Shown: in pieces, positions 1-60,505 of the stretch
Numbering within the stretch: position 1 is the stretch's first letter
How the letters are laid out: every line of letters starts with the position of its first letter
Source of the DNA: Bacteroidales bacterium
Lineage (GTDB): Bacteria; Bacteroidota; Bacteroidia; Bacteroidales; JAADJA01
Assembly (NCBI GenBank): GCA_020438105.1
Contig: JAGQVE010000009.1
Location: 1 to 64,000 of the forward strand
Direction of reading: 5' to 3'
Length of the DNA: 64,000 bases
Made by a program: the position numbers and the translations under genes
The notes under the pieces: generated by a model
Told to the model about the DNA's origin: nothing
Databases searched by the model: none
The model's input: the letters and a program-made list of their open reading frames with translations, nothing else

Positions 1-488
1 ACCATCACGATCGCTTTTTGTCCCTGTGCCGCACAGATCCCGGCCAGCGAAGATCCGGCATTCCCGGTGGAGGCTGTCACGATGGTACCGATTCCTTTTT
101 CTTTGGCAAATGCCGAAACAATGGCCGAAGCACGGTCCTTGAACGAAAAGGTCGGATTTTGGGAATCGTCTTTCACGTAAAAATCAAAGTTCAGTGCTTC
201 ATTTCCGAGCTTATTAAAATGGTATAAAGCTGTTTCGCCAATTCTGAGATTGGGTAAGCTTTTCAAATCATTAACCGGAAGCAGGTCGAGCCAATGGTTT
301 TGTTTGAGTTGGCTGAGTGTTATTCCTTTTTGTTTGAGAGAATCGTAATCGTAAAGGGTTTTTAATACACCTTTGGGAGGCAGGGCATTCGGGAAATTTG
401 CGGAACAGTCGGGGCACAGGTAGTGAATTGCATCTGAATCAAACCTTTTGCCACAGTTTGTGCACGCATATGTAAATTTATTTCCCAT
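1..488 (-). CDS. thrC: Threonine synthase, N-terminal part (cut by window edge)
   Basis: Converts O-phosphohomoserine to threonine with pyridoxal phosphate. The 162 visible residues begin at the ATG at 488 with a zinc-ribbon-like segment (Cys 9, 12, 25 and 28), then the threonine-synthase N-terminal region. The PLP-binding motif SFKDRAS lies near residue 117 and is followed by the phosphate-contacting STGNAGSS motif. The rest of the protein lies left of the window. The stop of the next gene upstream is 25 bp away in the same direction, so the two are probably co-transcribed. Threonine synthase paralogues also occur in clusters with YgfK and xanthine dehydrogenase, so a catabolic role rather than threonine biosynthesis cannot be excluded from this fragment. 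Confidence 0.85.
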   Translation of the reverse strand, partial: MGNKFTYACTNCGKRFDSDAIHYLCPDCSANFPNALPPKGVLKTLYDYDSLKQKGITLSQLKQNHWLDLLPVNDLKSLPNLRIGETALYHFNKLGNEALNFDFYVKDDSQNPTFSFKDRASAIVSAFAKEKGIGTIVTASTGNAGSSLAGICAAQGQKAIVM

Positions 489-513
489 TCGTATCTTGTA
501 AATTTAGACAGAA

Positions 514-1983
514 TTATTCATATTCCTTCATCACCCCAGTCCGCTCATTGAACTCCATGATCTTTTCATCCCACTCATCGGCTTTTGCAAACTGCGATTT
601 CCAGTAATTGTCGTCGTACCACTGTGCATTGAGTTCATCCACTGTTTTGCCTTGCTGCTCGATCCATGTGAAATATTTCAGGTTATGCATCCGCCGCTTT
701 TCGTAATAAGTCATTTCGATCATGTAGTCGGTTTTCAGTCCCATCAAATCACGCTGGAAGATCACTTCAGCTTTTTGGTTACTCAGTTTCCCGTGCTCAT
801 CTTTCTCTTCCAGCAACCGCGATTGATACATTTCCATCGAATCCGTGGCTACTGTGAATAAGATGTCATGTTCATTCATCTCAAAATATTTCGCCAGTTT
901 GATGGTGCCCATGAGGTTAGCTATGGACGAAATACCGAGATAGCGCAGTTTTTTCACTAGTTCTGGATCGATCCCGAGTTCATCAGTCAGGAATTCTTTG
1001 CCTGCCGGTTCATTGAAAAGTCGCATGATCCGGATATTCGGTTCATCATCGATGCCGGCCACCAGGTCCATGTTTTTAATATTGTGGATCCACGGCACAT
1101 GCTTGTCGCCGATGCCTTCGATGCGGTGGGCGCCATAACCGTTGTAGAGCAGGGTAGGGCATTGCAAAGCTTCGCCGGCACATACTTTCATCGTCGGATA
1201 TTTTTCGCGCAGGTAATCGGCGCTGCCCAACGTTCCGGCGGATCCCTGTGTTAGGAACATTCCACTAAACCGGCTTTCAGGTGATTTAATGGAATTAAAA
1301 ACCTCTTCCATGGCCGGACCGGTCACCGCATAATGCCAAAGTGGGTTTCCTATCTCCTCAAACTGGTTCAGGTTGACGATCTCATCACCGCGCTCGGCTT
1401 TTAGTTCCTTCACTTTATCATAAATTTCCTTGACATTGCTTTCGCTTCCGGGCGTAGCAAAAATCTCCGTACCCACTTTCTTTAGCCAGTCGAAACGCTC
1501 TTTCGACATGCCTTCCGGCAAAACGGCTATTGACTCGCATCCCAAAAGGTAAGAATCGTAAGCTCCACCGCGACAATAATTACCGGTGGAGGGCCAGAGG
1601 GCTTTTTGCCGGGTTGGATCGAATCGGCCGGATACCAGTTTTTCAACCAGCGGCCCGAAAGTTGCACCCACTTTATGAGCTCCTGTCGGAAAGTATTTCC
1701 CGATGAGCATGATGATGCGGGCATCCACGCCGGTCAACGATTTGGGCAATTCGATGTAATTGACCTTCCCGAATCCTCCACCGAATTCCACAGACTCATT
1801 TTTCCAGGTGATGCGGAAAAGGTTGAGGGAGTTCAGATCCCACAAACCGATGTGTTTCAGCTTTGCTTTGATCTTCTCCGGGATCAGTTCCGGGTTGCGC
1901 ATCTGTTTGTAAGTCGGGATGATGATGTGCCGCTCCCGGCAGCGCTGAATGGTGTTTTTTAAAATTTCGTCTTTTGTGCTCAT
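514..1983 (-). CDS. PLP-dependent fold-type II enzyme (TrpB/cysteine-synthase-like), 489 aa
   Basis: A 489-residue enzyme of the tryptophan synthase beta superfamily. The motif PTGAHKVGA near residue 103 matches the TrpB-type HTGAHK site, whose lysine forms the Schiff base with PLP. A substrate-side motif PSTGNYCRGGAYDS follows near residue 133, and a glycine-rich phosphate-binding loop (GSAGTLGSADYL) comes later. It is longer than cysteine synthase (about 310 aa) or DpaL/YgeX (about 400 aa), so the substrate is not evident. Its neighbours, YgfK and threonine synthase, suggest that it handles an amino-acid product of the purine or amino-acid catabolic locus, as YgeX does in E. coli. That role is an inference. 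The reading frame is intact and the start is the ATG at 1983. Confidence 0.75.
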   Translation of the reverse strand: MSTKDEILKNTIQRCRERHIIIPTYKQMRNPELIPEKIKAKLKHIGLWDLNSLNLFRITWKNESVEFGGGFGKVNYIELPKSLTGVDARIIMLIGKYFPTGAHKVGATFGPLVEKLVSGRFDPTRQKALWPSTGNYCRGGAYDSYLLGCESIAVLPEGMSKERFDWLKKVGTEIFATPGSESNVKEIYDKVKELKAERGDEIVNLNQFEEIGNPLWHYAVTGPAMEEVFNSIKSPESRFSGMFLTQGSAGTLGSADYLREKYPTMKVCAGEALQCPTLLYNGYGAHRIEGIGDKHVPWIHNIKNMDLVAGIDDEPNIRIMRLFNEPAGKEFLTDELGIDPELVKKLRYLGISSIANLMGTIKLAKYFEMNEHDILFTVATDSMEMYQSRLLEEKDEHGKLSNQKAEVIFQRDLMGLKTDYMIEMTYYEKRRMHNLKYFTWIEQQGKTVDELNAQWYDDNYWKSQFAKADEWDEKIMEFNERTGVMKEYE

Positions 1984-1998
1984 ATATCTTCGTCAATT

Positions 1999-2038
1999 GA
2001 ACGCGGATGACGCTGATTTAACAGATCATCGCGGATTG
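1999..2038. repeat. Left imperfect terminal inverted repeat of GxxExxY unit
   Basis: About 37-40 nt beginning GAACGCGGATGACGCTGATT. It pairs as an imperfect inverted repeat with 2408-2445 (about 25 of 37 positions identical by eye). The GxxExxY gene stops inside it, so its last residues (NNPR) are encoded by the repeat. Confidence 0.6.
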
Positions 2039-2406
2039 TTTGTGAATATTTTTCGTTTGAATTGTGGTTCTTTGCCAAAATTAAGCAACAAACCTATTTC
2101 TATGTCAGTAGCTTTCAGGTAATTGATCAACTGGAATTCATGCTCTTCGCAGATGACTTCTGCCGCTTTTAACTCCACGATGACCTTTTCTTCGACCAAT
2201 AAATCTGCAAAATAGCTGCCCACTAATTTTTCTCTATAATACACATCAATTGGATATTGCTTTTGCACTGATAGTCCCATTTCTGTCAATTCGAGCAGCA
2301 TGGAATTTTCATAAACTTTCTCCAGAAACCCAAACCCTAACGTATTATACACATTATAAAACGCCCTGATTATCCTATCCGTAATATTCTTATGTTTAAT
2401 TTCCAT
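2026..2406 (-). CDS. GxxExxY family protein
   Basis: A 126-residue protein of the GxxExxY family, named after a motif seen here as GFLEKVYENSM near residue 27. Later motifs, YFADLLVEEKVIVELKA and a QLINYLKA segment, fit the PD-(D/E)xK-like nuclease fold proposed for this family (D, E-x-K order). No function is established. The gene sits between ygfK and the PLP enzyme in the same direction and is bracketed by imperfect inverted repeats. Its stop codon lies within the left repeat, and its start is next to the right one. This arrangement suggests that the gene and its repeats form one mobile or once-mobile unit that entered the locus after it formed. Confidence 0.85.
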   Translation of the reverse strand: MEIKHKNITDRIIRAFYNVYNTLGFGFLEKVYENSMLLELTEMGLSVQKQYPIDVYYREKLVGSYFADLLVEEKVIVELKAAEVICEEHEFQLINYLKATDIEIGLLLNFGKEPQFKRKIFTNNPR

Positions 2407-2407
2407 A

Positions 2408-2445
2408 TCCGTGTAAATCCGCTAAATCCGTTTAATCTGTGTTCC
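2408..2445. repeat. Right imperfect terminal inverted repeat of GxxExxY unit
   Basis: On the minus strand it reads GGAACACAGATTAAACGGAT and onward, matching the left repeat at 1999-2038 in inverted orientation. The stop codon of ygfK (2422-2424) and its last residues (NGTQIKRI) are encoded within this repeat. Confidence 0.6.
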
Positions 2446-5400
2446 ATTTAAATTTTCAATTCCTGCTTTAATTATCCTCATCTCCACCGCCCTACTCAAA
2501 TCAACTTCTCCCTCAATTTCAATCCCAAAATCCAAAATGCTAAAATCTTTTTTTGATAAAAGGATCTTTGAAGTTGGTGTACTATATTCAAAATGATCTT
2601 CCTTTTCTTTTAATTGGCTAAGCTGCCCATTATTTCTGTAAAGTAACATATCCCCGTCCAGAAAATAGCAATCATCATCTTTTTCAAAAGCGGATCGAGT
2701 CAGGTAAAGATGCGGTTTTTCTTTGTACGGTGCTCCCGAAGTCGGGCAAAAGGTATTGCAGTTGCCGCATTCGTTGCACCAGTCGGCGATGTGTAGGATT
2801 TGTGGTGACTGTCCTATTTTGAAAATCCCATCTTCCACAATTTCGGTTTTACCATTTGAATAAACCAACTTAGAAAGTCTGATTTCCTGGGGTTCCACAA
2901 AATACGAATAGAGCGCCAGGTTTGGGCAGACCGTCACGCAGGTGTTGCAGAGCTCATCGCATTTCAGGCAGCGGGATGCCTCCTGCCTGGCCTGATCATC
3001 GGTCAGGGTTTGTGTGACCAACTGGAAACTTTTTCTTTCTTTCAACCCGATTTCTTCCACCTGCACTGCCCTGTTTTTCTTCATGCGATTGATCATCAGT
3101 TTTCGCGGATCGGTTTTTTGCCTTTCAGCGGGAAGATCAATTTTAAAATCGATGCCTGCCTTCAGCATGATTTGCTCTGCTGCTTTCCGGCCGTCGCCGA
3201 TGGCATTGATGGCCGTGGAAGCGCCGCGCAGGGCATCCCCACCGATAAGCACGTTCGGGATTTTCGTTTCATAAAGGCCCGGTTCAGCCTTCAGGTATTT
3301 GGGCTCGATGAAATCAATCTCCGGATCCTGACCGATGGCCGGAAGCAGCGTGTCGCAGGGAATTTCAAATTCCGAACCGGTTATCTCTACCGGTTTTGGC
3401 CGGCCGGCGCCATCCGTGCCTTCCAGTTTCATACGGATACAGGTGAGCGATTCCACTTTGAAATTTTTTACATTGACCTTGACAGGCAATACCAGTTCCT
3501 GTATTTCCATTCCTTCTTCAAGCACCGCTTTGATTTCCCCCTGGTCAGCCGGCATCTGGTCCATCGTCCGGCGATAGAGAATGGTGATCTTTGCATTTTT
3601 ATCAGCAAGCCGAAAAGCCGTACGGGCCGTGTCCATGGCAGTGTTTCCTCCGCCAATGATGGCAATGTTTTTTCCCAGTTGAAGCGTTTTTCCTTCTTTT
3701 ACCTTAATTAAAAAATCAAGCGGATCAATCACACCCCCAGCTTCGATATTCTCAATTATAAATTTACGCGATCGGGGTGCTCCGGTGGCGATGTAAACAA
3801 AATCGGCCTTTTGCCTGATCTCCTCAAAATTGTTTTTAGTAATTTCGGTGTTGTAATGGATCTTTACACCGGCTTTTTCAATCCATTTTAAATCCTTTAA
3901 ATAGGTTTCATGGGTTAACCGAAATGACGGAATTGCTCCTGAAACCATGCCTCCGGTTTGTGTTTTATTTTCAAAAACATCCACCTGAAATCCTGCCAGG
4001 GCTAGGAAATATGCTGCACTGAGTCCTGAAGGTCCTGCCCCGATGACAGCTACTTTCTTCTTGTTTTTACTAATTTTTCCAGGATTGTATTCCAAATCCT
4101 TCTCGGCGACAAACCGTTTGATTTCGCGGATCAGCAGCGGATCATCGTAATTGATGCGCGTGCATTTGGTCTGGCATAGGTGATCGCACACCATCCCGGT
4201 TGAATTGGGGAAGGGGTTGGTCCGCAGGATGGCGCGAAACGAATTTGTATCCTCATCATTCCCAACATAATGTAAATAATCCGGTATGTCCTGGTTTGTC
4301 GGACAGGTTTCAACACAAGGCGCCGCAACACAATCGAAGGTCCCCAGTTTCCGGCTGGTTTTTGTGGTGGGCTCCTGAATGGATGTTTTTTGATAGTCAC
4401 TTGATTCAATAACCTCCTGGGCATAGGTTTTTAGGTTTTTTAAAATCGCTTTATCTTTTGCTTTCCGGTTTGAAACCCTCAAAATATATTCATCAATCGA
4501 TCCAGCCTGTATGTTTTGAAATTCAGAATTGAGATTATCAACATATTGCCGTAGAAGTCCGTAGCCACCGGGTTTCAGGATGTCGGAACAAACCGTTACC
4601 GGACTCAATCCGCAGGCAACCAGCCGGTGAATGTTAAACGCATTTGCACCTGCTGAAAATGAGATATCGAGTTTTCCGTCGAAATCTTTTTGAAGCTTGA
4701 AAGCCAGGTTCACCGCCAGCGGATGCAGGGCCCTGCCGCTCATATACATCATTTTTTCGGTTTCCGGGAAAACCGGTTTGTGATTCCGGCTTTCGAGGGT
4801 GTTGGTGAGTTTTAATCCAAAATGGACGTTGTTTATGGAAGCCGTAATTTGCAGGTTTTTGATGATCTGAACCGCGTCAGGATATTTCAGGTCGTGTTCG
4901 AACGCTTCATCCGGAACCCGTGTTTTAAAACCGCTGTGATCAAGAATATCATGCAATTTTTCTTTTCCAAGCAAGGTAGGGTTGAGCTTAATGGTGGTAT
5001 GCAATTTTTTCTCCTGAATAAGATACAAGCCGATTTTTTCAATTTCGTCAGGCGGGCAACCATGCATGGTGGAGAGGGTAATATTATCCGAAATACAATC
5101 GGGAATTTCAAGCTGACCGATCTCCGGATAAAGGTCACGAATCTCCTCAATTTTGGTCTTTTTCTCCTTACTGCAATCCTTCATCCTGCTGAAAAACCAC
5201 TGCACATTTTCATTAATAATCCCCTTTAGGTCATAACCGACGCTCATGTTGAAGATCGTTCCTAACTCCTTATCATCGAAACCCAGTTTGTGTTTCAGCA
5301 AATGGATCAAAATCCAGGCATTGAGGTATTGGTCGAAAGATTCATGGATTTTCAGTTCCTGCGACCATTCGCAGTTGTAACCTTCATCCTGCATATCAAT

Positions 5401-5697
5401 ACAGGGTTTGGCGACCGCAATTTCATCCAGGGTTTGAACGGTTTTCAATTCCACGTACCGTGCACCGCAAAGCCAGGCTGCCACAATATTTTGCGTCAAT
5501 TGAGAATGCGGTCCTGCTGCAACGCCGATGGGTGTTTCAAGCAGTTGGTCAAAGCGTCTGAGGCGAAAAGTATCACTTGGGTTTGGTTTAAAAAAAACTT
5601 TAGCAGGGATGCCAAAGTACTGCCCCTTTGAATTGATCTGATCCAAAATCAACTGGGTGAGCTGACGAAACGGTAAAATGGAGAAATTGTCGGTCAT
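2422..5697 (-). CDS. ygfK: YgfK-type putative selenate reductase / iron-sulfur flavoprotein subunit
   Basis: A 1091-residue multidomain oxidoreductase matching E. coli YgfK (about 1030 aa). Residues 1-430 resemble the dihydroorotate-dehydrogenase-like FMN barrel. A GltD-type Fe-S domain follows with CVAAPCVETCP and CDHLCQTKC. An FAD fold with VAVIGAGPSG lies near residue 549 and an NAD(P) fold with AIIGGGNTAMD near 682. C-terminal [4Fe-4S] motifs CLKCDELCNTCVTVCP (about 911) and CNECGNCNTFCP (about 971) complete it. YgfK occurs with selenium-dependent molybdenum hydroxylases and the anaerobic purine-degradation cluster, where it is thought to move electrons; its exact reaction is unsettled. 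A near-perfect Bacteroidota promoter precedes it. Its last eight residues lie in a dispersed repeat. Confidence 0.9.
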   Translation of the reverse strand: MTDNFSILPFRQLTQLILDQINSKGQYFGIPAKVFFKPNPSDTFRLRRFDQLLETPIGVAAGPHSQLTQNIVAAWLCGARYVELKTVQTLDEIAVAKPCIDMQDEGYNCEWSQELKIHESFDQYLNAWILIHLLKHKLGFDDKELGTIFNMSVGYDLKGIINENVQWFFSRMKDCSKEKKTKIEEIRDLYPEIGQLEIPDCISDNITLSTMHGCPPDEIEKIGLYLIQEKKLHTTIKLNPTLLGKEKLHDILDHSGFKTRVPDEAFEHDLKYPDAVQIIKNLQITASINNVHFGLKLTNTLESRNHKPVFPETEKMMYMSGRALHPLAVNLAFKLQKDFDGKLDISFSAGANAFNIHRLVACGLSPVTVCSDILKPGGYGLLRQYVDNLNSEFQNIQAGSIDEYILRVSNRKAKDKAILKNLKTYAQEVIESSDYQKTSIQEPTTKTSRKLGTFDCVAAPCVETCPTNQDIPDYLHYVGNDEDTNSFRAILRTNPFPNSTGMVCDHLCQTKCTRINYDDPLLIREIKRFVAEKDLEYNPGKISKNKKKVAVIGAGPSGLSAAYFLALAGFQVDVFENKTQTGGMVSGAIPSFRLTHETYLKDLKWIEKAGVKIHYNTEITKNNFEEIRQKADFVYIATGAPRSRKFIIENIEAGGVIDPLDFLIKVKEGKTLQLGKNIAIIGGGNTAMDTARTAFRLADKNAKITILYRRTMDQMPADQGEIKAVLEEGMEIQELVLPVKVNVKNFKVESLTCIRMKLEGTDGAGRPKPVEITGSEFEIPCDTLLPAIGQDPEIDFIEPKYLKAEPGLYETKIPNVLIGGDALRGASTAINAIGDGRKAAEQIMLKAGIDFKIDLPAERQKTDPRKLMINRMKKNRAVQVEEIGLKERKSFQLVTQTLTDDQARQEASRCLKCDELCNTCVTVCPNLALYSYFVEPQEIRLSKLVYSNGKTEIVEDGIFKIGQSPQILHIADWCNECGNCNTFCPTSGAPYKEKPHLYLTRSAFEKDDDCYFLDGDMLLYRNNGQLSQLKEKEDHFEYSTPTSKILLSKKDFSILDFGIEIEGEVDLSRAVEMRIIKAGIENLNGTQIKRI

Positions 5698-5712
5698 CCT
5701 ATTGTTATTCCC

Positions 5713-5749
5713 TAAACAGCAAATCTACAAATATTCGTAGTTTTGGCAA
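5713..5749 (-). promoter_or_regulatory. Promoter of ygfK (TTG-N19-TAnnTTTG)
   Basis: On the minus strand TTG (5749-5747) is followed after exactly 19 nt by TAGATTTG (5727-5720), the Bacteroidota -33/-7 consensus. Transcription would start near 5713, about 16 nt before the ygfK ATG at 5697, which supports that start. Confidence 0.65.
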
Positions 5750-5788
5750 CGATTACATGAATTTCTATAAACAATACTTAGTTGAAAA

Positions 5789-6376
5789 ATGAATGAACGG
5801 GGCGACCGGCCTGCAGTGGTGATCCTTGCTGCCGGATTATCGGAACGAATAGGGAAACCGAAACACGAACTGCGGTTTTCGGAAGAGTCGACTTTTCTGG
5901 AGCATATCATCCGGGTATATCAAAAGTTTGTGGCTTCGCAAATCGTGCTGGTGATCAATGATAGGGATGATTTCGGCAGGTATTTCTATGAAGATGATTT
6001 GAAGATTATTGTCAATAAGAACCCTGAGCTTGGTCGGTTTCATTCGATTCAACTTGGTCTGAAAGAAATCAACGATGCTCCTGTCTTTATCCAGAACATC
6101 GACAATCCCTTTGTGTCGCCGGGTTTGCTGATGATACTGGAAAAGGGGATTGAAGATGCGGACTTTGCAGTTCCGGTGAATGAAAGAAAGGGTGGGCATC
6201 CGATACTTCTATCAAAAACAATAGTCAGTAATCTTGTTGAAGATTTTAATAAGGAGGAGAAACTAAATAATGTGTTAACGCATTTCATCCGAAAAGACGT
6301 TCCGATGAATGATCCTTATGTTTTAGTGAATATAAATACGGAAGAGGATTATCGGAAATATTTTTCTGGTTTATAG
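5789..6376 (+). CDS. mocA: Molybdenum cofactor cytidylyltransferase (MocA/YgfJ-like)
   Basis: A 195-residue nucleotidyltransferase of the MobA-like NTP_transf_3 family. The signature VVILAAGLSERIGKPK lies near residue 12 and the metal-binding region IQNIDNPF near residue 110. E. coli MocA (YgfJ, 192 aa) attaches CMP to molybdopterin for xanthine-dehydrogenase-type enzymes, which fits the xdh genes here. The gene is divergent from ygfK (91-bp spacer) and convergent with xdhB. Its stop codon TAG (6374-6376) touches the first base of the 75-bp inverted repeat at 6376-6450. A MobA-type guanylyltransferase is the alternative, but the locus strongly favours the cytidylyl form. Confidence 0.85.
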   Translation: MNERGDRPAVVILAAGLSERIGKPKHELRFSEESTFLEHIIRVYQKFVASQIVLVINDRDDFGRYFYEDDLKIIVNKNPELGRFHSIQLGLKEINDAPVFIQNIDNPFVSPGLLMILEKGIEDADFAVPVNERKGGHPILLSKTIVSNLVEDFNKEEKLNNVLTHFIRKDVPMNDPYVLVNINTEEDYRKYFSGL

Positions 6377-6450
6377 AACGCGGATGACACGGATCTTGCT
6401 GATTCTCGCGGATCTGTGTAAATCCGTTTAATCAGGGTCATCCGCGTTCC
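6376..6450. repeat. Palindromic 75-bp element, the GxxExxY-unit repeats without a gene
   Basis: Begins GAACGCGGATGAC and ends with its exact 13-nt inverted complement; the interior is also loosely palindromic and uses the same GCGGAT/TGATT words as the repeats at 1999-2038 and 2408-2445. It fills the whole gap between convergent mocA and xdhB, and xdhB stops inside it (ending MERG). It could fold into a long hairpin that terminates both transcripts. Confidence 0.65.
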
Positions 6451-8741
6451 ATCCCTTCCCGGATCTTCTCCACAGCTTCCAGTATCACCTCATTCGTCGC
6501 CGGCAAAGAAAACTCAGGCTCAGATTGATGATCTCCCACAGCGGAAATCGCATCCTTAATTGCCAGCCACACCGACAACGCCAGCATAAAGGGCGGTTCA
6601 CCCACAGCCTTGCTTTGTTTGATGGTGGCAGGATTTGGGGCATTCTTCAAAATCTCAACCCGGAAATCTTTTGGAATGTCTTGAATGGTGGGGATTTTAT
6701 ATGTGTCGGGTGAATGGTTAAGCAGGTTGCCGTTTGCATCGTATTTCAAATCTTCCGTTGTAACCCAGCCCATTCCCTGCACAAACCCACCTTCGATTTG
6801 GCCGATATCAATACGTTCGTTGATCGATTTTCCGACATCATGGAGGATGTCTGTTCTCAAAACCTTTGCATAACCGGTAAGTGTATCCACCTCAACTTCA
6901 GTTACGGCCATCCCGAAAGCAAAATAATGAAAGGGTTTGCCGCGGCCTTTGTCTTTGTCGTAATGAATGTCGGGTGTTTTGTAGTACCCGGTGGCACTCA
7001 GACTGGTCTGGTTGAGATAAGCGAGATTGATAAGGTCAGGAAACCGGATATTATTTTCCGGATTATTCGCATCAAAAACAATATCTTTTTCAAACCGGAT
7101 GTTCTCAGGCTTGGAACCGCCATTGAACGCAACCTTTGCAGCCACTTCCGATAACCTTGATTTTAATTTGTCGATGGCATTTTGTACCGCCATCCCGTTC
7201 AGGTCGCTGCCGCTGGAGGCTGCAGTAGCCGATGTGTTGGGGACTTTGGACGTATTTGTTGAAGTAACTTTAATGAACTTCGGATCGATTCCCAACTCTG
7301 AGGCCGCCACCTGTAGAATTTTGAGGTATAATCCCTGACCCATTTCCGTTCCGCCGTGATTTACCTGAACAGTTCCGTCTTTGTAAATATTGACCAAAGC
7401 CCCGGCCTGGTTGAGAAAGGAGGTTGTAAAGGAGATACCGAATTTGACCGGAGTGAGTGCTATGCCGCGCTTGGTAAATCGGTTGAATTGGTTAAACTGG
7501 TTAATTTGGGAACGGCGTTCGCTATAGTCTGATGTTTTCGTTAACTGTTTGTAAAGCGCCTGCAATCGGTTGTTTTCAACTTTTTGCCCATAATGAGTGA
7601 TGTTTTCTTTTTCTTCATTATAAAAATTCAGTTTCCTGATCTCCAGCGGATCTTTACCAAGATGTCGTGCAATGCGGTCGATGATATTTTCGATTACAGC
7701 CATACCCTGTGGCCCGCCGAAACCGCGAAAAGCGGTGTTGGAAGGGAGGTTGGTTTTCCAGGTATTTCCGACCACTTTCAGATTGGGAATATAGTAGGCA
7801 TTATCAATATGGAACATAGCCCGTTCGGTAATGGCCATCGTAAGGTCGTTTGATGATCCGGCATCCAGGTTAAGATCGACATCCAGAGCATGGATTTTAC
7901 CATTTCTATCAAAACCTACCTTGTAATAATTCAGTGTCCGGTGGCGTTTACCGGTCATGATCTGATCCTCATCACGGTTCAAACAAATTTTAACCGGTTT
8001 GCCAGTGGCATTTGCTAGCAGGGAGGACCATGCCGCCACATGATTAGCCTGTGTTTCTTTTCCACCGAACGCGCCGCCCATTCGCCGAACCTCAACTTCA
8101 ACTTCATTTTTCTGAATCCCCAAAACTTCAGCAACAATGGCCTGTGTTTCGGACGGATGTTGGGTGGAACTGTAAGCCATCATCTCCCTGTCTTCACCCG
8201 GAACCGCCAGGCAGGATTGCGTTTCGAGATACCAGTGTTCCTGTCCGCCTGTTTTTAAAGAGCCTTCAAGGATTTTGTCACTTTCTGAAAAGCCCTTTTC
8301 AAGATCACCACATTCGATTTTCCTGGGAGGAGCCAGTCGGTTTTCTTTTTCTATGGCTGTGTCAAGATCAAGAATGGCATCAAGAAGTTCATAATCGATT
8401 TTCAATTTCTTTTCAGCTTCCCGGGCGGCTTTCTTAGTTTTGGCTGCGATCAGAGCGATCGCCTGTCCGATAAACGTCACTTCCTTGTCTGCCAGGCAAA
8501 TTTCATCATGCACCACCGGCCCCATCTGGTTTAGCCCTGGGATGTCTTTTGCCAACAAAATGGTATCAACTCCATTAACCTTTAAGGCCTCTGAAATATT
8601 GATGGAAACGATCTTTGCATGCGCCTGCTTGCTATACACCACGTGGCCTTCAAGCATCTCGCTGCTGGCCTGCATGTCGTTCACATACACCGACTGACCG
8701 GTGACGTGTTTGTGGGCGCTATCGTGCGGGAGAAAGTTCAT
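6438..8741 (-). CDS. xdhB: Xanthine dehydrogenase, molybdopterin-binding subunit
   Basis: A molybdenum hydroxylase large subunit of about 767 residues. Three motifs mark it as a purine hydroxylase rather than an aldehyde oxidase: GGAFGGKE near residue 222, TAFRGFGGPQG near 339 and the catalytic GEPP glutamate near 712. The first two hold the Glu and Arg that bind purines in bovine and Rhodobacter XDH. I chose the ATG at 8741 because AGGAG (8753-8749) sits 7 nt upstream; an earlier ATG at 8756 lies ahead of that site. The gene overlaps the xdhA end, so they are translationally coupled. A stretch at 7471-7509 encoding QINQFNQFNRF matches an intergenic 9-nt tandem repeat of this genome. The last residues (MERG) come from the 6376-6450 repeat. 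Confidence 0.92.
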   Translation of the reverse strand: MNFLPHDSAHKHVTGQSVYVNDMQASSEMLEGHVVYSKQAHAKIVSINISEALKVNGVDTILLAKDIPGLNQMGPVVHDEICLADKEVTFIGQAIALIAAKTKKAAREAEKKLKIDYELLDAILDLDTAIEKENRLAPPRKIECGDLEKGFSESDKILEGSLKTGGQEHWYLETQSCLAVPGEDREMMAYSSTQHPSETQAIVAEVLGIQKNEVEVEVRRMGGAFGGKETQANHVAAWSSLLANATGKPVKICLNRDEDQIMTGKRHRTLNYYKVGFDRNGKIHALDVDLNLDAGSSNDLTMAITERAMFHIDNAYYIPNLKVVGNTWKTNLPSNTAFRGFGGPQGMAVIENIIDRIARHLGKDPLEIRKLNFYNEEKENITHYGQKVENNRLQALYKQLTKTSDYSERRSQINQFNQFNRFTKRGIALTPVKFGISFTTSFLNQAGALVNIYKDGTVQVNHGGTEMGQGLYLKILQVAASELGIDPKFIKVTSTNTSKVPNTSATAASSGSDLNGMAVQNAIDKLKSRLSEVAAKVAFNGGSKPENIRFEKDIVFDANNPENNIRFPDLINLAYLNQTSLSATGYYKTPDIHYDKDKGRGKPFHYFAFGMAVTEVEVDTLTGYAKVLRTDILHDVGKSINERIDIGQIEGGFVQGMGWVTTEDLKYDANGNLLNHSPDTYKIPTIQDIPKDFRVEILKNAPNPATIKQSKAVGEPPFMLALSVWLAIKDAISAVGDHQSEPEFSLPATNEVILEAVEKIREGMERG

Positions 8742-55288: not shown

Positions 55289-58200
55289 TTAGCGGGTTCT
55301 TTCAATTTGCATATTTACTGGTGATTTACCATTGCCGTTGGGGTGACATGAATAACAACCTGCATTACCCTGGCTTTGATGGTGCGCATTGGAATGGCAA
55401 TTAATACAATCAAATATGGTGAAATTACCGGGTGTAGTGTGACAATCGATACATTGATCCCATTCTCCCTGATGTTTTCCGGAATATATCGGGAAGTATT
55501 GACTGTCATGGTTAAATGTTGATGGTGTCCATGCGGTTTGTGAATGACAGGGTTCGCAATCAGTCGGGAATTGTGCCAACTGGTGATTCGGATCATTGGT
55601 TGAATTATAGTCACCTTCATGGCATCCAAAACATGTATTGGGTGTATTGCTGTAGCTGCCCTCATGGCATTCAAAACAATCATTTGCAATGCTTGCATGC
55701 GCTCCCTGCAACTGGTAGAAATCATCATGCACCGGGAATGTGGCCGGTTGCCAGTTAGGGTTGGTAGTGTGGCACTGAGCACAATCGTTTGTCAATCCAA
55801 GGTCATTGTGATCAGGATTGGATGTTGCATTATAATTCTCAATATGACAGCCGGCACACTCATTGGGTGTGTTGGTGTAATTGCCTTCATGACAATCAAA
55901 GCAGGAAACCGTTTCGTGTGCACCGGTAAGCGGATAGAACTCATCATGACCGCTGTAACTGGCCGGTGACCAGCCCGGGTTGGTTGTATGGCAAACCTGG
56001 CATTCGGTGGGATAACCACTTTCAATATGATTCGGATCAGTAGTTTGATTGTAGTTTTCAATATGGCAACCTGAACACTCATTGGGTGTGTTACCGTAAC
56101 CTCCCTCGTGGCAGTCGTTACATGAGATGCTCGCATGTGCGCCGGTTAGCGGAAATACATTTTCATGATTCGCGTAATTGGCCGGCGACCATCCTGGATT
56201 TGTTGTATGGCACTCATCACAGTTGGTTGAGAATCCATTACCTGAGTGATCAGGATTGGTGGTTTGATTATAATTCTCGATATGACAGCTTTGGCACTCA
56301 TTGGACATATTGGTGTAATTACCCTGGTGGCACTCATTACATGATATTGTTTCATGTGCACCGGTTAAGGGCCAGATATCATCATGATTATTGAATGTTG
56401 CGGGCGACCAACCTGGACTGGTGGTGTGGCAAATTTCGCATTCTTGCGGGAATCCTGATTCAATGTGATTCGGATCCGTAGTTTGATTGTAATTATCAAT
56501 ATGGCATCCGGCACACTCGTTTGGAGTATTGGTATAGCTGCCTTCATGACAATCATAGCAAGAAATGGTGGTATGCGCTCCATTTAACGGGAAGAAGTTA
56601 TCATGGTCAGCATAAGTAGCTGGTGACCAGCCCGGATTAGTTGTATGGCATTCTTCACAAGTGGTCGCAAAACCGATTTCACCATGATCCGGATCAGTTG
56701 TTTGGTTATAATTACTTATGTGGCAACTGGCACACTCATTCGGAATGGTGGTGTAATTACCCTGATGACATTCGTTACATGAGGTTGTTTCGTGAGCTCC
56801 TGTTAGTGGCCAGATTTCATCATGTCCGTTGTATGAAGCAGGTGACCAGCCCGGACTCGTGGTATGGCAAATTTCGCATTCTTGCGGGAATCCTGATTCA
56901 ACGTGATTTGGATCATTCGTTTGATTGTAGTTGTCGAGGTGGCATCCCACACACTCGTTAGGAGTGTTGGTATAGCTTCCTTCATGACATTCATAACACG
57001 AAATTGTGGTATGTGCTCCATTCAATGGGAAGAAGTTATCATGTTCAGCAAAAGTGGCCGGTGACCAGCCAGGATTTGTGGTATGGCACTCTTCACAGGT
57101 GGTTGCAAAACCAATTTCGCCATGATCCGGATCCGTAGTTTGGTTATAATTATTAATATGGCAACTTGCACACTCATTCGAAATGGTGGTGTAATTACCC
57201 TGATGACATTCGTTACATGAGATTGTTTCGTGTGCTCCGGTTAATGGCCAGATTTCATCATGCGTGCTGAAACTTGCAGGCGTCCAACCCGGATCAGTTG
57301 TATGGCAAATATTACATTCCTGAGGGAATCCTGCCTGAACGTGGTTGGGGTCAGTAGTTTGATTGAAATTTTCAATATGACAGGCCACACACTCACTAGG
57401 TGTGTTTTCATAACTTCCCTGGTGGCAATCAAAACAATCTACGGTTGAGTGAGCCCCATCAAGTGGGAAATTGGTTAAACCGTGGTCAAATCCTGTTGCA
57501 TTTCCGCCGTCGGGGTGACATTCAAGACAGTTAATACTATTATAAACGTAGCCAGGAATGCCTTCATGCTCATCATCCATTTCGCCCTGCGGGTGGCAGG
57601 TCAAACACTGGAATATGGCATAGTTTGTCGGGTCGCTGTGGCAATCACTGCATTGATCCCATTCACCTTCATGCTCTCCTGAATAGATCGGGAAATACTG
57701 ATTATCATGGTTAAAAGTTGAAGGCTCCCATGCATTCTGATTATGGCACATTTCACAATCTGTTGGGAACTGTGCTGCCTGGTGGTTGGGATCGTTTGTT
57801 GAAGTATAATCCTCCTGGTGGCAACCATAACATGTATTCGGAGTTGTTGTGTAATTGCCTTCGTGGCACTCAAAGCAGTTATTGGCTATAGCAACGTGTG
57901 CTCCTTCCAGAACATAATACTCATCATGAACCGGGAATGTGGCGGGCTGCCAGTCGGGATCAGTGGTATGGCACAATGCACAATTGTTTGTCAATCCCAA
58001 TTCATTGTGATCAGGATTTGAAGTTTGGTTGAAATTCTCGATATGACAACCGGCACATTCGTTGGGTGTATTGGTGTAACTACCCTGATGACAATCGAAA
58101 CAGGTAGCCGAAGTGTGGGCTCCCGTTAAGGGCCAGATTTCGTCATGACCGCTGTAATTTGCAGGAGTCCAGCCCGGATTTGTTGTATGACAAACCTCAC

Positions 58201-60505
58201 ATTCGGTTGGGAATCCTGATTCAACGTGATTTGGATCAGTTGTTTGATTATAAGCATCTATATGGCAGCTTGCGCATTCATTGGAGGTATTGGTATAACC
58301 GCTTTCATGGCAATCAATACAGGATGCGGTAGTATGCGCTCCGGTCAATGGCCAGATTTCGTCATGTCCGTTAAAGGTAGCTGGACTCCAGCCAGGTTGT
58401 GTGGTGTGGCAAATTTCACATTCCTGAGGAAATCCTGATTCTACGTGATTAGGATCCGTCGTTTGATTAAAGTTGTCGAGGTGGCAGGATACACAAGTGT
58501 TGGGTGTGTTTCCGTAATTGCCTTCGTGACAGGCAAAACAATCCACACCTGCATGTCCACCATCAAGGATAAATCCTGTAGCCGAGTGATCAAACCCAGA
58601 TGCACTGCTGCCATCGGGGTGGCATTCCAAACATGCGATACTATTATATACGTATCCCGGGAATCCCTGGTGCTCCTCATTCATCTCTGGCTGCGGGTGG
58701 CAGGTTAAACACTGGAATATAGCATAGTTACCCGGATCATTATGACAATCCATACACTCTTCCCATTCGCCCTCATGACTTCCACTGTAAATTGGGAAAT
58801 ACTGCGCGTCATGATTAAAATTAGCAGGTTCCCATGCTGTTTGTGAGTGACAGGTTTCACATTCTGTCGGGAATTGTGCTGCAATGTGATTTGGATCTGT
58901 GGATTGATTGTATTCATCGGCATGGCAGCCAAAACAGGTGTTTGGTGTTGTGGTATAATTTCCCTGGTGACATTCAAAACAATCCGCAGCGATGGTGACG
59001 TGCGCGCCTTCCAGCACATAATATTCGTCATGAACCGGGAATTGTGCGGGTTGCCAGTCGGCATCCGTGGTGTGGCACTGGGCACAATCGTTCGAAATTC
59101 CAATGCTGATGTGATTGGGATTGGTGGTTTGCTCGTAGTTGATCTGGTGACAACTCACACACTCGTTGGGAGTGTTGGCATAAACACCTTCGTGGCAATC
59201 AAAACAAGTGGCCGAAAGGTGTTCTCCAGTAAGCGGATATATCTCATCGTGCATCGGGAATTGGGCAGGTGTCCATTCCGGATCAGTGGTATGACATTCA
59301 GCACAATCGTTGGCAATTCCAACTTCCATGTGGTTTGGATTGGTGGATTGCTCATATTCCTGGATATGACAATCGTAGCAATACATGGTAGTTCCTTCAT
59401 AACCGCCTTCATGGCACTCAATACAATCGGTATTTAAGTGAGCTCCGGTTAACGGGAAGTTGGTGGCGGCATGATTAAATGTATTTTCAGCATCTCCTGT
59501 TGGGTGGCATTCAAAACATGCAATGCTTTCGTAAATATATCCATTCACTTCATCATGCTCATCATCAGAATCAGGTTTGTTATGATCATGGCAATCGATG
59601 CAGGAGAATACATTGTAATTATTACCAACAGTGTGGCATTCGCTACAGTTGTTCCATTCATCTTTGTGCCCACCTGAGTATATCGGGAAATATTGCGCAT
59701 CATGAATGGTGAAGTCGGCCGGTTTCCAGTCGGGGGAAGTTGTATGACACTCTGAGCAATCCGTTGATAATTCTGCGGCAGCATGGTTCGGATTAATTGA
59801 TGCCATATAATCGACTTCGTGGCAGGCAAAACAATCTGTAGGTGTGTTGCTGTAATCATTATTGGTGTGGCACTGTGCGCAATCATTAATTGCGTGACCT
59901 TCTACCAATGGGAAAAAACTATGGTTGATATTTGTTCCTGTCCAGGTAGTTCCGTCTACACGGTGACATTCAATACAGTCCGTAGAAAAACCGCTTTCAG
60001 TATGATTGGGATCGGTGGTGGCGTTATAATCAGCTTTATGACAGTCATAACATTCAATTCCGAGTGGCTCAAAAACAAGGGTAGAAGCTGATGGGTGACA
60101 TTGATAACAATCGGCCGTGGCGTGGGGGCCGAGTAGTGGAAATCTGCTTCTTTGGTGAATCTCTGTAATATTATCTACGATCCAGGATTTTGGGGTATGA
60201 CATTCGGCGCAGTTTGTTCCCAAAGTTTCCTGGTGCATATCCGTATGGCAGGAGATACACTCACTACCAGCTTCCTTAAATTTTAAAGTAGGGTGACATC
60301 CAACACAAGCGGCATCCTGATGCATTCCTGTGAGCGGAAAACTGGTTTTTCCATGATCAAAGGTATATGTTCCTGCTTCCAGTTTCCAGCTTTTTGAGTT
60401 ATGGCAGTCGGTACACGACATGTCAAAGTCGCTGCCATGAGGCGATTGCGCAAAAATACTACCTGTTAGCGCCAGTAACAGGACTATTTGTGACAGGATT
60501 CGCAT
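55289..60505 (-). CDS. Giant multiheme c-type cytochrome, about 70 CxxCH motifs
   Basis: A 1738-residue exported cytochrome (signal peptide MRILSQIVLLLALTGSIFAQ). By eye it has 70 CxxCH heme-binding motifs, about one per 25 residues. The core unit of about 70 residues carries three motifs, for example CEICHTTSPGW, then CNECHQGNYT, then CASCHISNYNQT. Extra histidines (GHDE, LTGAH, DPDH) could serve as distal ligands, giving bis-His low-spin hemes. Four related blocks with FPIYSG, near residues 268, 565, 933 and 1665, divide the chain. There is no lipobox and no T9SS domain. It overlaps the 20-heme gene by 22 bp and precedes the barrel gene by 4 bp. A long electron wire across or outside the envelope is the likely role; the partner is unknown. 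Confidence 0.93.
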   Translation of the reverse strand: MRILSQIVLLLALTGSIFAQSPHGSDFDMSCTDCHNSKSWKLEAGTYTFDHGKTSFPLTGMHQDAACVGCHPTLKFKEAGSECISCHTDMHQETLGTNCAECHTPKSWIVDNITEIHQRSRFPLLGPHATADCYQCHPSASTLVFEPLGIECYDCHKADYNATTDPNHTESGFSTDCIECHRVDGTTWTGTNINHSFFPLVEGHAINDCAQCHTNNDYSNTPTDCFACHEVDYMASINPNHAAAELSTDCSECHTTSPDWKPADFTIHDAQYFPIYSGGHKDEWNNCSECHTVGNNYNVFSCIDCHDHNKPDSDDEHDEVNGYIYESIACFECHPTGDAENTFNHAATNFPLTGAHLNTDCIECHEGGYEGTTMYCYDCHIQEYEQSTNPNHMEVGIANDCAECHTTDPEWTPAQFPMHDEIYPLTGEHLSATCFDCHEGVYANTPNECVSCHQINYEQTTNPNHISIGISNDCAQCHTTDADWQPAQFPVHDEYYVLEGAHVTIAADCFECHQGNYTTTPNTCFGCHADEYNQSTDPNHIAAQFPTECETCHSQTAWEPANFNHDAQYFPIYSGSHEGEWEECMDCHNDPGNYAIFQCLTCHPQPEMNEEHQGFPGYVYNSIACLECHPDGSSASGFDHSATGFILDGGHAGVDCFACHEGNYGNTPNTCVSCHLDNFNQTTDPNHVESGFPQECEICHTTQPGWSPATFNGHDEIWPLTGAHTTASCIDCHESGYTNTSNECASCHIDAYNQTTDPNHVESGFPTECEVCHTTNPGWTPANYSGHDEIWPLTGAHTSATCFDCHQGSYTNTPNECAGCHIENFNQTSNPDHNELGLTNNCALCHTTDPDWQPATFPVHDEYYVLEGAHVAIANNCFECHEGNYTTTPNTCYGCHQEDYTSTNDPNHQAAQFPTDCEMCHNQNAWEPSTFNHDNQYFPIYSGEHEGEWDQCSDCHSDPTNYAIFQCLTCHPQGEMDDEHEGIPGYVYNSINCLECHPDGGNATGFDHGLTNFPLDGAHSTVDCFDCHQGSYENTPSECVACHIENFNQTTDPNHVQAGFPQECNICHTTDPGWTPASFSTHDEIWPLTGAHETISCNECHQGNYTTISNECASCHINNYNQTTDPDHGEIGFATTCEECHTTNPGWSPATFAEHDNFFPLNGAHTTISCYECHEGSYTNTPNECVGCHLDNYNQTNDPNHVESGFPQECEICHTTSPGWSPASYNGHDEIWPLTGAHETTSCNECHQGNYTTIPNECASCHISNYNQTTDPDHGEIGFATTCEECHTTNPGWSPATYADHDNFFPLNGAHTTISCYDCHEGSYTNTPNECAGCHIDNYNQTTDPNHIESGFPQECEICHTTSPGWSPATFNNHDDIWPLTGAHETISCNECHQGNYTNMSNECQSCHIENYNQTTNPDHSGNGFSTNCDECHTTNPGWSPANYANHENVFPLTGAHASISCNDCHEGGYGNTPNECSGCHIENYNQTTDPNHIESGYPTECQVCHTTNPGWSPASYSGHDEFYPLTGAHETVSCFDCHEGNYTNTPNECAGCHIENYNATSNPDHNDLGLTNDCAQCHTTNPNWQPATFPVHDDFYQLQGAHASIANDCFECHEGSYSNTPNTCFGCHEGDYNSTNDPNHQLAQFPTDCEPCHSQTAWTPSTFNHDSQYFPIYSGKHQGEWDQCIDCHTTPGNFTIFDCINCHSNAHHQSQGNAGCYSCHPNGNGKSPVNMQIERTR

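Follow-up and report, generated by a model that had tools for sequence, protein, structure and literature searches.

A GxxExxY nuclease gene between inverted iteron arrays, a candidate minimal mobile element in bacteria

The window analyzed here, a stretch of 64,000 nucleotides from a Bacteroidales bacterium (contig JAGQVE010000009.1), contains at positions 1999-2444 a unit of ~450 bases that consists of one GxxExxY gene between imperfect inverted arms. We read this unit as a probable minimal mobile element built around a nuclease gene, and palindromes that have ends of the same kind but no gene as its probable non-autonomous derivatives. We hold with good confidence that it is a mobile unit whose ends are specific to its nuclease, while the steps by which the nuclease and repair would cut and copy it are proposed tentatively. 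Comparison of sequences supports the ends, their recognition (as read from co-variation), past movement, and the association of the gene-free copies with the gene. We infer a transposition-like or homing function for the GxxExxY gene.

The left arm (1999-2036, plus strand) begins with GAAC at its outer end, position 1999, and carries the inward-facing iterons CGCGGAT (2002-2008), CGCTGAT (2011-2017), AACAGAT (2020-2026), and CGCGGAT (2030-2036). The right arm (2407-2444, minus strand) has its own outer GAAC on the minus strand at 2444 and carries within 2407-2444, in the same register, the iterons CACAGAT, AACGGAT, AGCGGAT, and CACGGAT. Each arm is an array of four 7-nt iterons ending in GAT, spaced 9, 9, and 10 nt in both. 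In ungapped alignment, the left arm and the reverse complement of the right are identical at 25 of 37 positions, or 26 of 42, which confirms the imperfect inverted repeats of ~37 nt that a first-pass annotation of this DNA had described. The GxxExxY gene (2026-2406, minus strand, 126 amino acids) has an ATG that abuts the right arm and a stop codon (2026-2028) inside the left arm, as that annotation had it. The right arm also overlaps the 3' end of a ygfK-like gene (2422-5697, minus strand), to which it supplies the final 7 codons and the stop (2422-2445, minus strand). A gene-free palindrome of the same end type lies at 6376-6449, with its left arm beginning at 6376 and its right arm ending at 6449, so the claim that the repeats recur 4 kb away without the gene also holds. 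The consensus given for the ends, GAACrCrGAT, fares less evenly: GAAC does form the outer ends of both window arms, but the ends are not one sequence across the family, as the iterons vary by locus.

That such repeats are a chance resemblance, or ordinary intergenic hairpins such as terminators around an unrelated gene, is extremely improbable. The gapped local score of the window locus alone, 16, would fit this explanation, as it is reached by 37% of gene-centred controls; the locus is ordinary by that measure, and the case stands on wider evidence. The best ungapped 37-mer between the flanks, at 25 identities, exceeds the maximum of 23 reached by any of 600 intervals of gene size drawn at random from the window, and BLAST matches the arms to other places in the same genome, the right arm to C53 (E = 1.8e-6) and the left arm to C99 (E = 2.7e-4). 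On these two results and the family-wide controls described below, chance resemblance was rejected. With no more than 2 mismatches allowed, the genome contains the loose pattern GAACRCRGATGACRC 34 times and its reversed control 11 times. At 3 mismatches in the window only, there is no excess (10 matches versus a shuffle mean of 10.8), and the four best of those 10 are the arms described above. The palindrome matches the pattern on both strands, and its fold as single-stranded DNA has a z of -4.96; a search of Rfam with positions 1-8000 of the window returned no structured RNA match. Elsewhere in the window, 56181-58469 contains tandem repeats of 219 and 438 bp, perhaps repetitive coding sequence.

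The protein itself is a confident member of its family, scoring 135.5 bits against TIGR04256 (cut-off 35) and 139.2 bits against PF13366 (cut-off 22). An AlphaFold2 model of the window protein has a pLDDT of 95.1, and the structures closest to it are PD-(D/E)XK superfamily nucleases, including lambda exonuclease; the model matches SSO0001 (4ic1), which we take to be a Cas4, with Z 10.4 and the archaeal Holliday-junction resolvase Hjc (1gef) with Z 7.2. A sequence-profile search of the PDB gave nothing significant (best E 0.088). Residues E29, D68, E78, and K80, which correspond to the catalytic E, D, and ExK, are fully conserved in two alignments, one of 71 and one of 68 sequences. Its modelled fold and catalytic residues place the protein among PD-(D/E)XK nucleases, with DNA cleavage as the predicted activity, in keeping with the nuclease-like fold ascribed to GxxExxY proteins at first pass. 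A substrate able to form cruciforms would go well with the predicted likeness to junction resolvases, although a shared fold alone shows no function. The PF13366/TIGR04256 gene is the only gene in the unit, which has no HUH (Y1) transposase and no known transposase of another kind.

GxxExxY genes are common, being present in 152 of 296 sampled Bacteroidota genomes, and a single genome can hold as many as 15 matches, many of them broken. Whether other members have inverted flanks was a check that the first-pass annotation had proposed, and they do, both in the same genome and statistically across phyla. All four PF13366 matches in the window's own genome, one of them a fragment, adjoin inverted or palindromic repeats when judged by eye, and the repeats belong to a different sequence family at each. 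We scored flanks by the best gapped inverted alignment between the two 250-nt stretches that border the gene. The median score was 22 versus 12 at shifted positions among relatives (67/72 loci), 22.5 versus 12 across the phylum (30/30 loci), 23 versus 13 among named loci (76/80), and 25 versus 13 in the phylum of a genome titled Methylobacter (29/29 loci). When loci were pooled, 126 of 254 exceeded the 95th percentile of 223 gene-centred controls, as did 12 of the controls themselves, and 70 of 254 exceeded the 99th percentile, as did 2 controls. Cases beyond Bacteroidota, by record title, include Cyanobacteria (L300), Pyrinomonadaceae (L302), Dojkabacteria (L303), Gemmatirosa (L317), and Sphingomonas (L318). 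In the last of these (Sphingomonas parapaucimobilis, NZ_CP155749.1) fabD and fabG enclose the gene, and iterons CACGCGAAGGCGCGAGGACGCGAAG stand immediately before it. Several Flavobacterium loci appear, by eye, to have flanking sequence in common, as would be expected if the unit had long stayed at one site.

Across the family, the arms can be described as arrays of oriented 7-mers, roughly CRCNRNK in form, that point inward from both sides, with a spacing of 8 to 13 nt (mode 9). Iteron families vary by locus and include CRCRGAT, CRCARAG, and CRCGAAT, among others, so that a single repeat family serving all GxxExxY genes was rejected. At least three inward iterons stand on both sides of the gene at 90 of 254 loci (8 of 262 having been dropped for short flanks), compared with 0 of 254 for shuffled flanks and 14 of 254 in the opposite orientation; 28 of the 254 have no iteron chain whatever on one side. 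The CRCNRNK pattern was written after the flanks had been viewed and so describes the arrays rather than testing them; the inverted-repeat flank scores are independent of it.

The iteron letters follow the protein. We built a FastTree tree of 162 proteins from the 254 loci, after leaving out 88 that have no chain of three iterons on either side and 4 whose proteins are shorter than 100 amino acids. This tree requires 4 changes of the last iteron base (G or T), compared with a mean of 19.1 in 300 shuffles (minimum 16), and 17 changes of the second base (A or G), compared with 54 in the shuffles (minimum 45). Labels were also shuffled within genomes to limit host effects (15 genomes and 37 loci, with 6 and 10 genomes informative), and the observed value was reached in 0 of 500 shuffles for both bases. 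Alignment of whole arms correlates with protein similarity overall (rho 0.29) and shows no correlation within genomes (rho 0.11, p 0.48). Iteron sequence tracks the GxxExxY protein, and this co-variation supports recognition by the nuclease of its own ends.

Gene-free palindromes are linked to the gene in turn. When the 296 genomes of the phylum were searched for three iterons of the CRCARAG class, 67 had matches; the reversed control pattern gave 3 hits in total. These arrays are found in 63 of 152 gene-bearing Bacteroidota genomes and in 4 of 144 without the gene; with one large gene-poor family left out, the figures are 63 of 147 and 3 of 84. The other 89 of the 152 gene-bearing genomes are without the CRCARAG class, the one class searched. 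One genome, G299, has 56 array hits at 39 places, with 3 hits less than 500 bp from a gene. Among 12 gene-free palindromes examined, 10 are intergenic, often within 40 nt of the end of an ORF, and four palindromes (the window's and three from other loci) have DNA fold z values of -5 to -9.8. In G299 the arms are joined as if the gene had been lost, while in G267 three gene-free palindromes (L383, L384, and L385) carry the arms of a gene-bearing locus, L386, joined inside-out. These three have differing loops and unrelated flanks and resemble the circle junction of an element. Iteron blocks also form tandem arrays at L397 and L398 (G183) and L402 (G285), with periods of ~245, ~120 to 140, and ~147 bp.

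The many palindromes without a gene would also fit an explanation in which they are mobilized by an enzyme acting in trans, for example an HUH (Y1) transposase, with GxxExxY as an accessory gene that two of them have trapped. In other systems it is HUH enzymes that move REPs (PMC8266576). The tracking of the GxxExxY protein tree by the iteron letters, and the concentration of arrays in genomes with a GxxExxY gene, argue against a passenger gene of this kind, which we regard as improbable.

The orthologous loci without insertion that the first-pass annotation had proposed to look for exist at two sites within the genus. The gap between a PALP gene and the ygfK-like gene was readable at 12 same-genus loci. 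The element is present in G000 and G012, and in G006 the gap is an empty 11 nt, with the PALP proteins 93% and the ygfK proteins 81% identical. G013 holds a bare iteron array, and four other gaps are short (40 to 137 nt) and without the element. The ygfK-like protein match covers residues 1-1083 only in the empty G006 and 1-1091 in the occupied G012; by this comparison, the final ygfK codons in G000 come from the element. At the second site, for which the 260 nt upstream of aspS were viewed in other species, a full copy is present in G000, a stop-bearing copy in G006, a remnant in G008, the array only in G010, and ~72 nt in the empty G012. At the place orthologous to the 6376-6449 palindrome, G012, G006, G014, and G002 have diverged palindrome-like sequence, which in G012 (L271) is interrupted by another short palindrome, CCTGCCTGCCGGCAGGCAGG; this has no match in the window at up to 3 mismatches. 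Comparison of CAATT/element/CATTT in G000 with CAATT at the empty G006 site would be consistent with a target duplication of 5 bp with one mismatch, and no duplication is seen at the occupied G012 site. The presence and absence of the unit at two orthologous sites within one genus supports past movement.

Other small elements occupy the same gap. In L278 (G015) it is filled with tandem copies of two other palindromic repeats, AACCTTTCGGG... and AAACCTGTGAGG-like, which makes the gap a hot spot for small palindromic elements. In G014, G008, and G001 a DUF559 gene, another small nuclease-like gene, stands in place of the element with inverted repeats of its own. In the three same-genus relatives with this gene (loci L273, L280, and L286, orthologous to the window gap at 1984-2421), DUF559 (PF04480, 105.6 bits) is fused in frame to ygfK, and its inverted repeats read AATTCCCCCTT...AAGGGGG. 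Plasmid DUF559 genes in a Deinococcus paa operon and in Pseudanabaena have near-perfect inverted flanks. Among the 8 of 16 plasmid matches fetched, inverted-repeat scores are 62 (L435), 69 (L436), and 17 (L433), with palindromes visible, and 9, 11, and 15 (L434, L438, and L439), without palindromes; L440 (36, a long GC-rich alignment) was not counted and L437, in a large ORF, was left out. DUF559 is likely a parallel system.

Varying occupancy of one site between congeners, together with the small number of recent ectopic duplicates, would also be expected of a homing-type selfish endonuclease, which cuts alleles that lack the unit so that recombination copies the unit in. PD-(D/E)XK homing endonucleases exist, which adds to the appeal of this explanation. 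The arms would then be recognition halves or operators, and the scattered palindromes relics of ectopic repair. In some genomes, however, dozens of gene-free palindromes lie in unrelated places, and the same iterons stand on both arms at all kinds of site, unlike split homing sites; we judge homing of this type unlikely, though it deserves real weight. The record of duplicates is sparse: two GxxExxY gene copies in G053, 92% identical and in unrelated places, are the only unlinked within-genome pair near 90% DNA identity that we found, which indicates that recent movement is rare. In G257 the unit is present as a tandem duplicate.

The same orthologous sites bear on a third explanation, in which GxxExxY is a stand-alone defense or repair nuclease with no mobility of its own and the iterons are operators or bidirectional terminators. 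At the 90 loci with arrays on both sides, the arrays lie close to start and stop, at median distances of 23 and 8 nt, and multiple oriented sites per arm would fit cooperative binding. Presence and absence at orthologous sites, an element that supplies its neighbor's stop codon, and a gene set inside the conserved fabD-GxxExxY-fabG operon of Sphingomonas all speak against this explanation, as do the numerous and often broken copies per genome and the mostly intergenic position of the gene-free palindromes. A purely regulatory or defensive role is, in our view, quite improbable.

For the preferred reading, a mobile nuclease element, we envisage that nuclease protomers, probably several, would line up on the iterons of both arms, which are spaced about 9 to 11 bp apart, near one helical turn. 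The nuclease would recognize its own ends, whether in duplex, hairpin, or cruciform form, and would cut either there or at an empty target, after which host repair would copy or insert the unit. It would also act in trans on the gene-free palindromes, as non-autonomous derivatives, in the way proposed for RAYTs and REPs. The scattering of gene-free copies favors transposition-like copying, whereas the scarcity of recent duplicates favors homing.

Several known systems share parts of this organization. The REPtron is a RAYT/TnpA-REP gene flanked by REP palindromes, with co-evolution of repeat and enzyme (PMC8266576, PMC3733652). The GxxExxY unit resembles it in placing a small gene for a DNA-processing enzyme between palindromes, in its head-to-head and tail-to-tail arrangements, in the intergenic position of gene-free palindromes near gene ends, and in repeat-enzyme co-evolution. 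It differs in that its enzyme is a predicted PD-(D/E)XK nuclease rather than the REPtron's HUH (Y1) transposase and in that its arms are arrays of 7-nt iterons; the GTAG tag, a REPtron trait, is absent from 1999-2036, 2407-2444, and 6376-6449. With another enzyme superfamily and arms built as iteron arrays, the GxxExxY unit is not a REPtron, though by analogy it may work like one. Insertion sequences and MITEs likewise have terminal inverted repeats around one gene and gene-free copies that resemble internal deletions, but the present unit is without a DDE, tyrosine, or serine transposase, and its arms are iterons that vary by locus. Cas4, lambda exonuclease, and archaeal Hjc share the predicted fold and kind of active site, and differ from GxxExxY in its genomic setting, bounded by iteron arms. 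PD-(D/E)XK homing endonucleases are likewise single small nuclease genes with occupied and empty alleles, but no intron or intein is seen here, and GxxExxY has inverted iteron ends and scattered gene-free copies.

In the open-access PMC literature we found no description of GxxExxY genes with flanking repeats and no described role for them; PMC8934634 and PMC12085832 name GxxExxY in passing. The unit appears to belong to a class of minimal mobile DNA in bacteria that is widespread and apparently undescribed. We go further only as a conjecture to which we give slightly less than even weight: GxxExxY units may form a new class of autonomous element in many phyla, in which a lone PD-(D/E)XK nuclease takes the role of a transposase, recognizes its own iteron-array palindromes, and spreads both itself and palindromes without the gene, while a second nuclease family, DUF559, may have arrived at this organization independently. 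If the nuclease itself moves the unit, this would be a new class of element. A link between GxxExxY and palindromic repeats would explain many unannotated intergenic repeats, would give the GxxExxY protein a testable substrate in its own flanks, and would mean that REP-like DNA can be spread by a non-HUH enzyme as well. Since iteron and protein vary together, the specificity code can be read from genomes and is directly testable, and a compact nuclease whose end recognition can be read in this way would be of interest to genome engineers.
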